Shown here: piece by piece, positions 5,495-21,579 of the stretch
Layout: each line of letters opens with the position of its first letter
How positions within the stretch are numbered: position 1 is the stretch's first letter
IMG/VR virus record: IMGVR_UViG_3300036760_001479
Span: 1-21,579 of that record
DNA from: a virus
Direction: 5' to 3' (one strand)
Length of the DNA: 21,579 bases
The notes under the pieces: generated by a model
The model's database searches: none
Told to the model about the DNA's origin: nothing
Seen by the model: the letters and a program-made list of their open reading frames with translations, nothing else
Program-made: the position numbers and the translations under genes

Positions 5495-6535
5495 ATGGAA
5501 TTTAAAGTTTTTCTGCTACCCGGTGCGAACCTGACGGTGAACGTCACGGAGGCCGACGAGCCAGGTGACAAGAGTTCCGCCCCCGTGCCGGACGAAATTC
5601 AGCTCGCGCCGCTGGGCGAGTTCGCCGACAAGGACGGCAACCGTTTTACGGTGACGCCGGAGGCGGTGGCCGCGATGATCGCGGGCTTTGCCACGCTGGT
5701 CAACGACGTGCCGGTGGATTACGAGCACCAAACCCTCGCCGGCGGCAAAGCGCCGGCGGCGGGCTGGATAACGGAACTGGCTGACAAGGGAACTGCCGGG
5801 TTGTGGGGCAAGGTGAAATGGACAGCCGAAGCCGCAAAACACCTGGCAATGCGTGAATACCGGTATCTCTCCCCCGTCCTGCTGGCAAACAAAAAGGACG
5901 GCGCGGGCCGCTACGTCCCCTCACGGCTCCATTCCGCCGCGCTTACCAATACGCCACAAATCGACGGCATGGTGCCGATCGTCAATAAAGGTTCTTTAAA
6001 CCCTTTACAGGAGGATTTTATGCTTGAAAAATTAAAAAAACTCCTCGGCCTGCCGGACTCCGCCACGGAAGAGCAGGTTGAGGAAGCGGTGATCGCCATG
6101 AAGGCGGCGTCCGTCCTTTCGCCGGAGGCGCTCGCCGCGCTGGGGCTTAAGGCGGGGGCCGACGCATCGGAGATTACCGCAACGGTGCTGGCCATGAAGC
6201 AGACCGCCACCGCAAGCGGCTCATCCGCCGAAAAAATCGCGGCGCTGGAAACACGCCTGTCCCAAAGGGAAGCCGAAGAGGCGGTGACGCTGGCCATGAA
6301 GGAAGGCAAAATCACCGAGGCGCAAAAAACGTGGGCGCTGGACTATGCGGGCAAGGACTTGCCCGGCTTCAGGATGTTTGTGGCCAAAGCCGCCGCCGTG
6401 GTGCCTATGGGCGTCCATCCCGCGGCCGTTGGCGGCGCCCGCCCGCCCGCCGTGATGACCGAGGAAACCATCGCCATAGCGATGAAGATGGGGATATCGC
6501 CGGAACGAATCGAAAAACAGGGAGGGATTGAATAA
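5495..6535 (+). CDS. I: Prohead protease/scaffold, Mu I (gp32)-like
   Basis: The 346-residue protein is a Mu gpI-type head maturation protease (peptidase U35 family) fused to a scaffold tail. The protease part (about 1-165) shows VPVDYEHQT (72-80) with the likely catalytic His, AAGWI (88-92), YRYLSPV (122-128) and LHSAALTNTPQIDGM (145-159). After residue 175 the sequence becomes a helical Ala/Glu/Lys-rich scaffold with two rigid stretches. GGAGGG stands 7 bp before the ATG. As in Mu, the scaffold half also has its own start inside the gene (see 6020). The protease would digest the scaffold once the shell has assembled. Its TAA overlaps the next ATG (TAATG). Confidence 0.9.
   Translation: MEFKVFLLPGANLTVNVTEADEPGDKSSAPVPDEIQLAPLGEFADKDGNRFTVTPEAVAAMIAGFATLVNDVPVDYEHQTLAGGKAPAAGWITELADKGTAGLWGKVKWTAEAAKHLAMREYRYLSPVLLANKKDGAGRYVPSRLHSAALTNTPQIDGMVPIVNKGSLNPLQEDFMLEKLKKLLGLPDSATEEQVEEAVIAMKAASVLSPEALAALGLKAGADASEITATVLAMKQTATASGSSAEKIAALETRLSQREAEEAVTLAMKEGKITEAQKTWALDYAGKDLPGFRMFVAKAAAVVPMGVHPAAVGGARPPAVMTEETIAIAMKMGISPERIEKQGGIE
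6009..6014 (+). promoter_or_regulatory. Internal ribosome binding site for the nested scaffold
   Basis: AGGAGG lies 5 bp before the in-frame ATG at 6020. A perfect Shine-Dalgarno at this spacing inside a coding region would be unlikely unless used, and it decides the start of the Z-like protein. Confidence 0.75.
6020..6535 (+). CDS. Z: Scaffold protein, Mu Z-like, nested in frame within the I gene
   Basis: An in-frame ATG (codon 176 of the I-like gene) is preceded by a perfect AGGAGG at 6009-6014, 5 bp upstream. This is as good as any ribosome site in the operon, although it lies within a coding sequence. The 171-residue product begins MLEKLKKLLGLP and is mostly helical with a likely coiled coil around residues 68-90 (IAALETRLSQREAEEAV). 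Mu makes separate protease-scaffold (I) and scaffold-only (Z) proteins from the same frame, and this layout reproduces that arrangement. Confidence 0.75.
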   Translation: MLEKLKKLLGLPDSATEEQVEEAVIAMKAASVLSPEALAALGLKAGADASEITATVLAMKQTATASGSSAEKIAALETRLSQREAEEAVTLAMKEGKITEAQKTWALDYAGKDLPGFRMFVAKAAAVVPMGVHPAAVGGARPPAVMTEETIAIAMKMGISPERIEKQGGIE

Positions 6536-6945
6536 TGGCCGCATTAACGTCCGACAGAAACACCGCCGCGCGCGAGGGAAACCAGTTGTCGCTCCCGGTG
6601 GCGGCGGGAACAAAAATATTCGCCGGTTCGATCGTCGCCCGCGACGCAAGCGGCAACGCGGTTCCCGGCTCCACCGCGACAACCCTTCTGGGCGTCGGGC
6701 GCGCGGAACAGCAGGTGGATAACACCGGCGGCGCGGCGGGCGACAAGGCCGTGAACATCGCCAAGGGGATATTCCAGTTTGCCAACTCGTCCGCGGGAGA
6801 CCTGATAACGCTGGCCGACGTCGGAGCCAACTGCCACATTGTGGACGACCAGACGGTAGCTAAGACGAATGGGACGAACACCCGCTCGGTGGCGGGCGCC
6901 GTGTTCGACGTGGACGCCAACGGCGTCTGGGTGAAATTCAACTAA
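6535..6945 (+). CDS. Small head protein, probable capsid decoration/cement protein
   Basis: The 136-residue protein is Ala/Gly/Val-rich with short beta strands and no predicted membrane segment. It has the feel of the DUF2190-type decoration proteins that precede the major capsid gene in many phages, for example GTKIFAGSIVARDASGNAV (residues 25-43) and LLGVGRAEQQVDN. Its position between scaffold and capsid genes matches Mu gp33. It starts by TAATG overlap with the I-like gene. It would sit on or stabilise the outer capsid surface. Family membership is an inference from position and composition; it could instead be a head fibre. Confidence 0.65.
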   Translation: MAALTSDRNTAAREGNQLSLPVAAGTKIFAGSIVARDASGNAVPGSTATTLLGVGRAEQQVDNTGGAAGDKAVNIAKGIFQFANSSAGDLITLADVGANCHIVDDQTVAKTNGTNTRSVAGAVFDVDANGVWVKFN

Positions 6946-6960
6946 GGAAGGAAAAAAAAC

Positions 6961-7992
6961 ATGAAAAAACTCATCGCAATGATCCCGTTATTGAGCGCCC
7001 TGTGCGCCGCCGTTATGTTCATCCTCGCGGCATTCGCCGCCATCCCCGCCCCGAACCATCCGGCGGCCCTGCCGCTCCTGCTGGGGCTGACCGTCAACGC
7101 GGCCACACTGCAGGGGATGATGATAAACTTCCGCACCCTTTTCAACGAGGCGCTTTCCGCCGCCCCTTCGTTTTGGGAACAGGTGGCCATGCTTGCCCCC
7201 TCCACCACGTCGGAGGCCGATTACAAATGGCTCGGCGAATTCCCCGGCATGAGGGAATGGCTCGGCGAAAAACAGGTGAAAAACCTCGAAGCGTACAGCT
7301 ATGTGATTAAAAACAGGGATTTCGAGTCCACGATAGCGGTGGACCGCAACGATATCGAAGACGACCAGTTCGGGTTGTACGCCCCCCGTGTGCAGGGAGC
7401 CGGTCGTGCCGCCAAGGTATGGCCCGACACGCTGGTATTCGCGCTTTTGGCGTCCGGTTTCACGGCGAAATGCTTTGACGGCCAGCCGTTCTTCGCCGCG
7501 GCGCACAAGTTCGGCGACGCGGCGGCGTTCAGCAACAAGGGAACGGCAAAACTCACCATCGCCACGCAGGCGGCGGCAATGGCCAGCTACGGCGCGGCCC
7601 GCGTGGCGCTTATGTCGATGGTGGACGACCGGGGAACGCCGCTTGGCATCACGCCGGATACCCTGGTGGTATCCCCGACCTACGCCGACGTCGCCAACGC
7701 GCTGATGAACACCGACCGGCTGGAGGACGGCAAACCGAACCTCTACAAGGGATCCGCGAAGGTTCTGGTAGTCCCGTACCTGCAGGGGGCGGCGTGGTAC
7801 CTGCTCTGCACCGACTTCCCGGTAAAGCCGCTCATCTTCCAGCAGAGGAAGGCCCCGGTGTTTTTGGCCCACACCGACCCCAACTCCGACAGGGTGTTTT
7901 TGCAGAAAAAATACCTGTTTGGCGCGGAAGCGCGCGGCAACGCCGGGTTCGGCCTGCCCCAGCTCGCCTACGGGTCGGACGGATCGGTTTAA
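6961..7992 (+). CDS. T: Major capsid protein, Mu T (gp34)-like, with hydrophobic N-terminal extension
   Basis: From about residue 45 the 343-residue protein follows Mu gpT: NFRTLFNEAL, then YKWLGEFPGMREWLGEKQVKN, FESTIAVDRNDIEDDQFGLYAP, FDGQPFFAAAHKFGDAAAF, VKPLIFQQRKAP and FLFGAEARGNAGFG-like ends (here YLFGAEARGNAGFG). It forms the icosahedral shell. The odd part is residues 1-45: MKKLIAMIPLL followed by two hydrophobic runs, resembling a signal peptide or membrane anchor, which Mu gpT lacks. The ATG at 6961 has AGGAAGG at 6945-6951, about 9 bp upstream, so the extension appears translated. The ATGATG at residues 52-53 lacks a comparable ribosome site. The prohead protease may remove the extension. 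A strong palindrome follows the stop. Confidence 0.92.
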   Translation: MKKLIAMIPLLSALCAAVMFILAAFAAIPAPNHPAALPLLLGLTVNAATLQGMMINFRTLFNEALSAAPSFWEQVAMLAPSTTSEADYKWLGEFPGMREWLGEKQVKNLEAYSYVIKNRDFESTIAVDRNDIEDDQFGLYAPRVQGAGRAAKVWPDTLVFALLASGFTAKCFDGQPFFAAAHKFGDAAAFSNKGTAKLTIATQAAAMASYGAARVALMSMVDDRGTPLGITPDTLVVSPTYADVANALMNTDRLEDGKPNLYKGSAKVLVVPYLQGAAWYLLCTDFPVKPLIFQQRKAPVFLAHTDPNSDRVFLQKKYLFGAEARGNAGFGLPQLAYGSDGSV

Positions 7993-8003
7993 CGGATAAC
8001 GGT

Positions 8004-8033
8004 TTCCCTTGTCCCCGCGCGGGGACAAGGGAA
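8004..8033 (+). terminator. 30-bp perfect palindrome after the major capsid gene
   Basis: TTCCCTTGTCCCC (8004-8016) pairs with GGGGACAAGGGAA (8021-8033) around a self-complementary GCGC. No T-run follows, and the downstream genes share the same orientation with a ribosome site 10 bp later. It may therefore act as a processing or stabilising hairpin for the abundant capsid transcript, or as a leaky terminator, rather than a full stop. Confidence 0.55.
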
Positions 8034-8051
8034 GCAAATCAAGGAGGAACC

Positions 8052-8384
8052 ATGCCCATAACGATTACATCAAGGTTCGACGGCTACCGGTTGTGCGGCC
8101 GCGAGCATCCGCTCGGCGCGAGGGAATATCCGGACGGGTACTTTACCGCCGAAGAGTTGGAGCGGTTAAAAGCCGAACCCCTTCTGACGGTTGAGAGCAT
8201 CGCAGACGGCGCTGGCGGCAATCCGCCCGCCTCCCGCGAAACCCGCGCGGCGGAACTGGCCGCGATGGACTACGCCACACTGTGCGAGCTGGCAAAAACA
8301 TACGGCCTGCCCGGCGCCGGGGTGAAGCGCGGCGTTGTGGAAACGAATATCCTCACCGCCGAGTTCCCGGAGGGAAAAGAGTAG
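8052..8384 (+). CDS. Mu gp35-like protein (HI1506-related)
   Basis: The 110-residue protein opens with MPITITSRFDGYRLCGREHPLG, the pattern of Mu gp35 / HI1506-related proteins found just after the capsid gene. It continues with YPDGYFTAEELERLKAEPLL. The C-terminal part (about residues 68-105, MDYATLCELAKTYGLPGAG) looks like a small SAP/LEM-type helical fold. The ATG at 8052 has AGGAGG 5 bp upstream, so this start is preferred to in-frame sites further upstream that would run through the palindrome. It probably works in head completion or as a head surface protein; no activity is known. Confidence 0.75.
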   Translation: MPITITSRFDGYRLCGREHPLGAREYPDGYFTAEELERLKAEPLLTVESIADGAGGNPPASRETRAAELAAMDYATLCELAKTYGLPGAGVKRGVVETNILTAEFPEGKE

Positions 8385-20367: not shown

Positions 20368-20376
20368 AAAAGAGCA

Positions 20377-20406
20377 GGTCGGGGCGGATATCAGCCGCTC
20401 CCGACC
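20377..20406 (+). other. Hairpin in the space where the dam 5' end should be
   Basis: GGTCGGGGCGG (20377-20387) pairs with CCGCTCCCGACC (20395-20406), leaving one bulged T, around a 7-base loop. It begins 10 bp after the stop of the small protein. No T-run follows. It may be a leftover of the event that removed the start of the methylase gene, or a processing hairpin. Confidence 0.45.
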
Positions 20407-20442
20407 GCGCGGAATCAACCCGCGCACGGCACGAGGCCGATA

Positions 20443-21087
20443 CTCTCGGTACTACTCACAAAAGAGCCGTCGAAAAACGAGGTGGTGAACGACTTTGACA
20501 CCGAGTTGGCCAACCTCTACAAAGTGGCCAAGTTCCGCCTGGGCGAACTGTGCGCGGCGGTGGAACACATCCCGGCGAGTCGGCAGATATGGGAAGAACT
20601 GCTCCACGCAGATCATAATTACCTGAATGAGGTGTACCGCGCCGTGCGGAAAATCTATATCCTCCGGGTTTCGTACGGCGGGCGCGGCCTACACTTCGGC
20701 ACCGACCGCACAAATTGCCGGTTCAAGGCTCCCCAACTCCGCGCGTGGTTGGAGGCGTTTTGGGCGCGCACCGCAAAGGTGACAATCGAGTGCCTGGATG
20801 CTTGCCACTTTATTTCCGTCTACGATGCCCCGGAGACATTTTTCTACGTTGACCCGCCCTACATCGGCAAAGATGATTACGCCCAAAAATTCGGCGATCG
20901 GGAACAGCAGGAACGATTGCGCGACTCGCTGGCGGGCGCAAAAGGGAAATGGCTCCTTTCGCATCACGACTGCGCGGACATCCGTGAGGTATATAAAGGA
21001 TTCCACATCAGCCCCCTAAAAGTCCCCTACAGCGTCCAAACGCGGGGAACGGCCAAGGCGACGGAACTCCTAATCAGCAACTATTAA
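20443..21087 (+). pseudogene. DNA adenine methylase (Dam family), 5'-truncated
   Basis: From LSVLLTKEPSKNEVVNDFDTELANLYKV onwards the frame follows phage Dam methylases: a substrate-binding region with RQIWEELL and YGGRGLHFG, the catalytic DPPY motif in FFYVDPPYIGKDDY (DPPY encoded at 20851-20862), KWLLSHHDC, and a normal C-terminus at 21087. The N-terminal SAM-binding segment (the PGGK and FxGxG motifs, about 45-60 residues) is absent. The frame is closed upstream by the stop at 20365-20367, and the intervening bases match nothing in any frame. Translation could start at GTG 20482, giving 201 residues, but this product should be inactive. In Mu a DNA-modification gene (mom) lies at the same place, so this was probably an anti-restriction gene. 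An assembly error is possible. Confidence 0.7.
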
Positions 21088-21110
21088 GGAGGGTATTCAC
21101 CCCCCTTTTA
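21086..21110 (+). terminator. Probable terminator at the end of the late operon
   Basis: AAGGAGGGT (21086-21094) pairs with ACCCCCCTT (21099-21107) around ATTC, with one mismatch, followed by TTA. It overlaps the stop of the methylase gene and ends the long + strand gene run. The short T tail makes it a modest intrinsic terminator. Confidence 0.55.
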
Positions 21111-21131
21111 TAGGTGCACAAACCGCGTTTA

Positions 21132-21154
21132 AAGGGGGGTGCAAAGCCCCCCTT
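21132..21154 (+). terminator. Second hairpin downstream of the late operon
   Basis: AAGGGGGG (21132-21139) pairs perfectly with CCCCCCTT (21147-21154) around a 7-base loop. A 6-bp hairpin AACCGT/ACGGTT (21176-21190) follows. Tandem hairpins here could shield the phage end from late transcription. No T-run follows, so termination is uncertain. Confidence 0.4.
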
Positions 21155-21181: not shown

Positions 21182-21268
21182 CAAACGGTTGGCGAATTAC
21201 AGGGGAGGGGGGTATCAACTTGTCTCAAACGAGGTGGCTGCTTTTCCCAAACGAGGTGGCTGATTACA
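21182..21268 (+). mobile_element. Putative right end of the Mu-like prophage (transposase-binding sites)
   Basis: CAAACGAGGTGGCTG occurs at 21226-21240 and 21248-21262. A related site, CAAACGGTTGGCGAATTACA, starts at 21182. The three starts are 44 and 22 bp apart, all multiples of 22. The outermost site is followed by ATTACA, so on the opposite strand the end reads TGTAATCAGCCACCTCGTTT, with the 5'-TG terminus of Mu-class elements. Position 21269 is also exactly where a host repeat begins. Mu's right end likewise has three transposase sites of about 22 bp. The call is an inference. Confidence 0.6.
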
Positions 21269-21331
21269 AGATTGCCCCTCCGGGGCAAAGTACATGGTTG
21301 AGACCATGTACCTACCAGAAAGGGTGTCCTA
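21269..21331 (+). repeat. 63-bp host repeat, copy 1 (abuts the phage end)
   Basis: The sequence is identical to 21404-21466 over 63 bp. It holds two perfect hairpins: TTGCCCC/GGGGCAA (21272-21288) and GTACATGGT/ACCATGTAC with loop TGAG (21290-21311). It is taken as chromosomal DNA directly flanking the prophage. Its first five bases (AGATT) would be the target duplication. Confidence 0.75.
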
Positions 21332-21356
21332 TTGCGCGGATGGTTTTTCTTGGTGG

Positions 21357-21396
21357 GTACGCGGCCTCTGCCGTGTACTTCATGCCGAAGGCATGA
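21357..21396 (+). repeat. Hairpin pair between the two 63-bp repeats
   Basis: GTACGCGGC/GCCGTGTAC (loop CTCT, one G-T mismatch, 21357-21378) is followed by TCATGCC/GGCATGA (loop GAA, 21380-21396). With the 63-bp copies they form a hairpin-rich block with a 135-bp period. Confidence 0.6.
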
Positions 21397-21403
21397 TTGC
21401 CTT

Positions 21404-21466
21404 AGATTGCCCCTCCGGGGCAAAGTACATGGTTGAGACCATGTACCTACCAGAAAGGGTGTCCTA
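21404..21466 (+). repeat. 63-bp host repeat, copy 2
   Basis: Identical to 21269-21331, with the same two hairpins (21407-21423 and 21425-21446). It is preceded by CTTCATGCCGAAGGCATGA and so probably shows what stood upstream of copy 1 before the phage inserted. Confidence 0.75.
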
Positions 21467-21482: not shown

Positions 21483-21579
21483 ATGAAGAAGTGGCGGATA
21501 CGGGCGGCGGTAGTTATTGCTTTGGCGGTTTTGTGCGGGGCGGGGACGGCGCGGGCGGGGGAACCGCCCAGGGAGCCGA
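21483..21579 (+). CDS. Exported protein, 5' end only (probable host gene)
   Basis: An ATG at 21483 with GGGGGAAG just upstream opens a frame to the window end. The 32 visible residues form a classic Sec signal peptide: MKKWRIRAA, a hydrophobic core VVIALAVLCGAG, and a likely cleavage after TARA, before GEPP. The Cys is not in a lipobox context. It lies beyond the proposed phage end, so it is probably a chromosomal gene for a periplasmic or outer-membrane protein. The function cannot be told. Confidence 0.65.
   Translation, partial: MKKWRIRAAVVIALAVLCGAGTARAGEPPREP

Follow-up and report, generated by a model that had tools for sequence, protein, structure and literature searches.

A probable Mu-type right terminus beside a two-hairpin REP-like unit in a metagenomic virus record

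The right terminus of an integrated transposable phage of the Mu type very probably lies at position 21268 of the window, i.e. of the entire record of 21,579 bp; two contiguous 22-bp blocks would be its transposase sites, and the phage would have inserted near a REP-like unit. The window begins just before the large terminase gene, and the left half of the phage is missing both here and in the contig of its closest relative (L014). It contains a Mu-like phage with a contractile tail and, beyond it, about 311 bp of other DNA. The elements are distributed as follows:

306 to 20367, plus strand: Mu-type head and tail gene block (PHROGs and Pfam matches; tblastn to Mu-like phages)
20482 to 21087, plus strand: D12-class N6-adenine methylase whose N-terminal part is absent, the final phage gene (Pfam PF02086)
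21219 to 21240, plus strand: inner 22-bp block, proposed transposase site R2 (91% identical to 21241-21262; conserved in L184)
21241 to 21262, plus strand: outer 22-bp block, proposed transposase site R1 (stops 6 bp from the terminus; conserved in L184)
21263 to 21268, plus strand: ATTACA, terminal 6 bp of the phage, TGTAAT when read inward (L184 homology ends here; TTACA is also the PV-1 right terminus)
21269 to 21273, no strand: AGATT, right copy of the predicted 5-bp target duplication (a CTGCA duplication is seen in the PV-1 relative)
21269 to 21331, plus strand: two-hairpin REP-like unit A, abutting the phage (fold z = -5.1; identical to 21404-21466)
21351 to 21401, minus strand: REP-like unit B, inverted (fold z = -3.9; its hairpin 2 is 24/28 identical to the unit at the L184 end)
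21404 to 21466, plus strand: REP-like unit C, an exact repeat of unit A, upstream of an open frame at 21484

The head and tail block carries genes for the large terminase, the portal, F, the I protease and a T-type head protein, together with those for the sheath, the tape measure, J/gp47, gp48, the fibre and an assembly protein. This Mu-type set includes Mu-like_Pro and Phage_Mu_Gp48 (PHROGs, Pfam). In the phage collection, the best matches to the window proteins have identities of about 46-54%. The closest relative found, far nearer than all others and the one close relative in the collections reached, is a groundwater MAG contig (JACQDN010000051.1; L014/L184), with identities of 71% for the portal, 65% for the major head protein and 53% for J.

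The methylase matches PF02086 over profile positions 47-248 of 253. Its gene (20368-21087) lacks an N-terminal part: the methylases of relatives have about 35-40 additional residues, which carry the GGK motif. In L184 just the last ~35 residues remain, and both phages appear to be losing the gene. An imperfect inverted repeat with G/C tracts (21088-21151) separates the methylase from the terminal sites and may be a terminator; L184 has a similar inverted repeat with G/C tracts 3' of its methylase remnant.

An earlier reading of the DNA, made from the sequence only, had placed the right end of a prophage at 21268 on the basis of two identical 15-bp sites, a TG/CA terminus with tandem sites like those of Mu, and a repeat starting at the very next base. 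These elements were all recovered. The 15-mer CAAACGAGGTGGCTG has just two exact copies, 22 bp apart, which start at 21226 and 21248; no 15-bp repeat within 60 bp was obtained in 200 dinucleotide shuffles of the window. The repeat is better seen as two adjacent 22-mers (21219-21240 and 21241-21262; 91% identity), and the letters after the outer one are ATTACA, then AGATT. The TG/CA-type terminus and the tandem right-end sites about 22 bp apart are conserved in L184, whose right end reads CCAAACGAGGTGGTTAAATTTCTCAAACGAAGTGGTTAATTACA up to the terminus and AATAGTCGG beyond it. Over the terminal 50 bp the two phages are identical at 40 positions, with both blocks and TTACA in common, and the homology ends there. 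The base-exact end is thus independently supported, because the homology with L184 stops at TTACA. Read inward, both ends start with TGTAAT, followed by two 22-bp blocks with the consensus YARCCACYTCGTTTGRSAMAWK (established by eye). The same reading had also proposed a diverged third site further inside, at 21182. The right end of Mu has such a third site (R1-R2-R3). Its in-register match is restricted to CAAACG, which is not found there in L184, and the site was rejected since it is not conserved. The only conserved piece nearby is CGAATTACA, at a distance from the end of 67 bp (window) or 62 bp (L184).

The geometry of the right end is shared with L184, with phage Mu and with a Mu-like prophage of Mariprofundus ferrooxydans PV-1 that has a 5-bp duplication. 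The right end of Escherichia phage Mu (AF083977) also has a pair of contiguous 22-bp blocks immediately inside its terminus, which is of the TG/CA type, and a DNA-modification gene lies just before it, in the same position: mom in Mu, the D12 methylase remnant in the window. The site sequences differ, being 11/27 identical to Mu R and 16/27 to Mu L, and the terminus is ATTACA/TGTAAT instead of TTCA/TGAA. Haemophilus phage SuMu (JF832915) has the Mu-like gene order and an adenine-specific DNA methylase gene close to its right end, but its structural proteins are distantly related to those of the window (sheath 39%).

The PV-1 prophage (G007:C3, about 438127-476640; sheath 44%) is more distant than L184. 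It has both ends visible; they were located by searching for TGT/ACA ends flanked by a common 5-mer. The right end reads GTCGCGTTACA followed by CTGCA, and the left one CTGCA followed by TGTGACGCGG, about 38.5 kb apart. The junctions are therefore TTACA followed by CTGCA on the right and CTGCA followed by TGTGACG on the left, i.e. a 5-bp duplication of CTGCA. Like the window, the prophage has a TTACA right terminus, 22-bp blocks at 6-27 and 28-49, and related head and tail genes. The 22-bp blocks at the right end of Mu have these same positions. The site sequence differs from that of the window. Within PV-1 the right blocks share 17/22 positions and the two termini 16/27. About 2.3 kb from the left end lies the gene for a MuA-like protein (Mu DNA-binding domain, rve, Mu-transpos_C), and a MuB-like ATPase is present as well. 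Since both ends are known in PV-1, TTACA preceded by tandem 22-bp blocks can be taken as a right terminus in this wider group. More distant Mu-like relatives (L038:18352-18470, L285:16756-16810, L298:8308-8400) have ends in CGCTACA or GCTTACA, which come shortly after a methylase or after 22-bp-spaced repeats; this suggests that TACA is a common right terminus. The duplication scan resolved no left end for the relatives in G004, G005, G006, G008 and G009.

For the window phage, AGATT is a good prediction as target duplication, because a 5-bp duplication is present in PV-1, and TGTAATCAGCC is the predicted left end. No left end was found in the viral contigs or in the L184 MAG. This MAG gave no Mu-transpos_C match either, and control genomes likewise gave none. 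The searches made showed no transposase gene of the window phage, for which the predicted location is outside the record. Exact searches of the viral contigs returned neither the double site nor the repeat, and those of the genome contigs returned no match to part of the repeat. A search of the viral contigs with the terminus gave 12 hits, all of them in the same coding motif from a group of unrelated low-G+C phages, and these were discarded.

The 63-bp exact repeat that begins at 21269, the base next to the proposed end, and again at 21404 is the window's only exact repeat of at least 20 bp. It belongs to an array of three palindromic units, A(+), B(-) and C(+), intergenic and of alternating orientation within 200 bp, which is a REP/BIME-like arrangement. 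Each unit has two hairpins, one short and GC-rich, the other of the form GTAC...GTAC with the loop WGAG; ACCA comes next. After the array, an open frame with a signal-peptide-like start (21484-21579) runs off the record and is the window's only hint of a host gene. The L184 phage end also adjoins a two-hairpin unit in the same orientation, at another locus, beside a PEGA/Lcl_C gene. The distance from the end to the first hairpin is 3 bp in the window and 5 bp in L184. The L184 host flank (6138-8302) has 52% G+C, compared with about 61% in the rest of its MAG and a minimum of 54% among some 300 random pieces of it, so this contig may be misbinned.

No perfect GTAC hairpin of this type was seen elsewhere in about 5 Mb of fetched loci. 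The pattern of hairpin 2 had no second copy in G001 and was absent from 384 other genomes of its class; it was likewise absent from 395 genomes in the phylum to which the L018 host belongs and from 77 in that of the L042 host. These groups need not include the host of the window phage, and the L184 contig is perhaps misbinned. As no dispersed copies of the unit were found in the genomes searched, we infer a host origin for the sequence starting at 21269 (AGATTGCCCCTCC) from the existence of the array and from the differences between the flanks further on. The flank had no match among plasmids. An Rfam identity was not retained, the only two matches being sub-threshold and attributable to chance. 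The single assembled flank would fit an integrated prophage better than a virion-packaged host end, itself possible.

The proposed events would be the following. A MuA-like transposase, probably encoded outside the record, would bind the two contiguous 22-bp blocks. The end, TGTAAT when read inward, would be cut after TTACA and joined to staggered target DNA, and transposition would have brought the phage into an intergenic repeat array, at a distance of 3 bp from the foot of one of its two-hairpin REP-like units. The staggered cut would be expected to duplicate AGATT (5 bp).

The end would have to be moved to the right of 21268 if the two-hairpin unit belonged to the phage, for example as a terminator at its extreme end. 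A unit of the same design does follow the end, with the same orientation, in the window as well as in L184. Such an assignment would, however, make the terminal sites internal, unlike those of Mu and PV-1, and the first unit of the window is followed by two more, of which one is identical to it. Moreover, the hairpin of the L184 unit is closer to the distal inverted unit B (24/28) than to the phage-adjacent unit A (19/28), whereas the phage ends agree at 40 of 50 positions. A host repeat family is therefore favoured over a piece of phage, and we consider the latter improbable. That the junction is an assembly artefact, a chimeric join at a repeat, is hardly credible: short repeats are present at the junction, and the relative comes from a MAG with a host flank compositionally odd for the bin, but two independent assemblies break at the same phage-end base, directly outside the terminal sites.

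With the end kept at 21268, the adjacency of unit A may reflect target choice, and not just provide a convenient boundary marker, because the L184 end, too, is bordered by a unit of this design. Whether it is instead a coincidence, or a survivor bias in which insertions in intergenic arrays are tolerated, is in our opinion evenly balanced. Intergenic insertion sites are favoured by selection, only two insertions are available, and no such hairpin unit neighbours the PV-1 prophage (judged by eye). On the other hand, the neighbouring unit is of one kind in both insertions, and both phages lie on its same side at a distance of 3-5 bp; hairpins of the GTAC type are absent elsewhere in the ~5 Mb of fetched loci. 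Hotspots at REP/BIME elements are also on record for transposable phages of another host: Ab30 and 2P1 of P. aeruginosa have insertion hotspots near these palindromic elements, those of Ab30 being 54-61 bp from the motif and without orientation bias (PMC5977238). The window and L184 phages resemble them in their insertion beside such elements; they differ in that their ends are 3-5 bp from the hairpin and both in the same orientation (n=2). Because REP/BIME-adjacent hotspots have already been described for the P. aeruginosa phages, we regard the end as ordinary for the Mu type, and a preference for hairpin targets as possible. The stronger proposal of a hairpin-selective lineage of Mu-type myophages, in which transposition would target the foot of two-hairpin REP-like units and always in one orientation, is tentative, and we rate it somewhat below an even chance.

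Besides a base-exact end, the comparison supplies a simple rule, a pair of 22-bp blocks and then TTACA, by which Mu-like prophages can be trimmed in contigs from metagenomes; the limits between virus and host are frequently uncertain in such contigs. The kind of phage is ordinary, and the hairpin adjacency is the sole part of the finding that could turn out to be surprising. If the hairpin preference is true, REP-directed insertion would be extended from P. aeruginosa phages to Mu-type myophages that infect uncultured hosts, and target choice would become testable.
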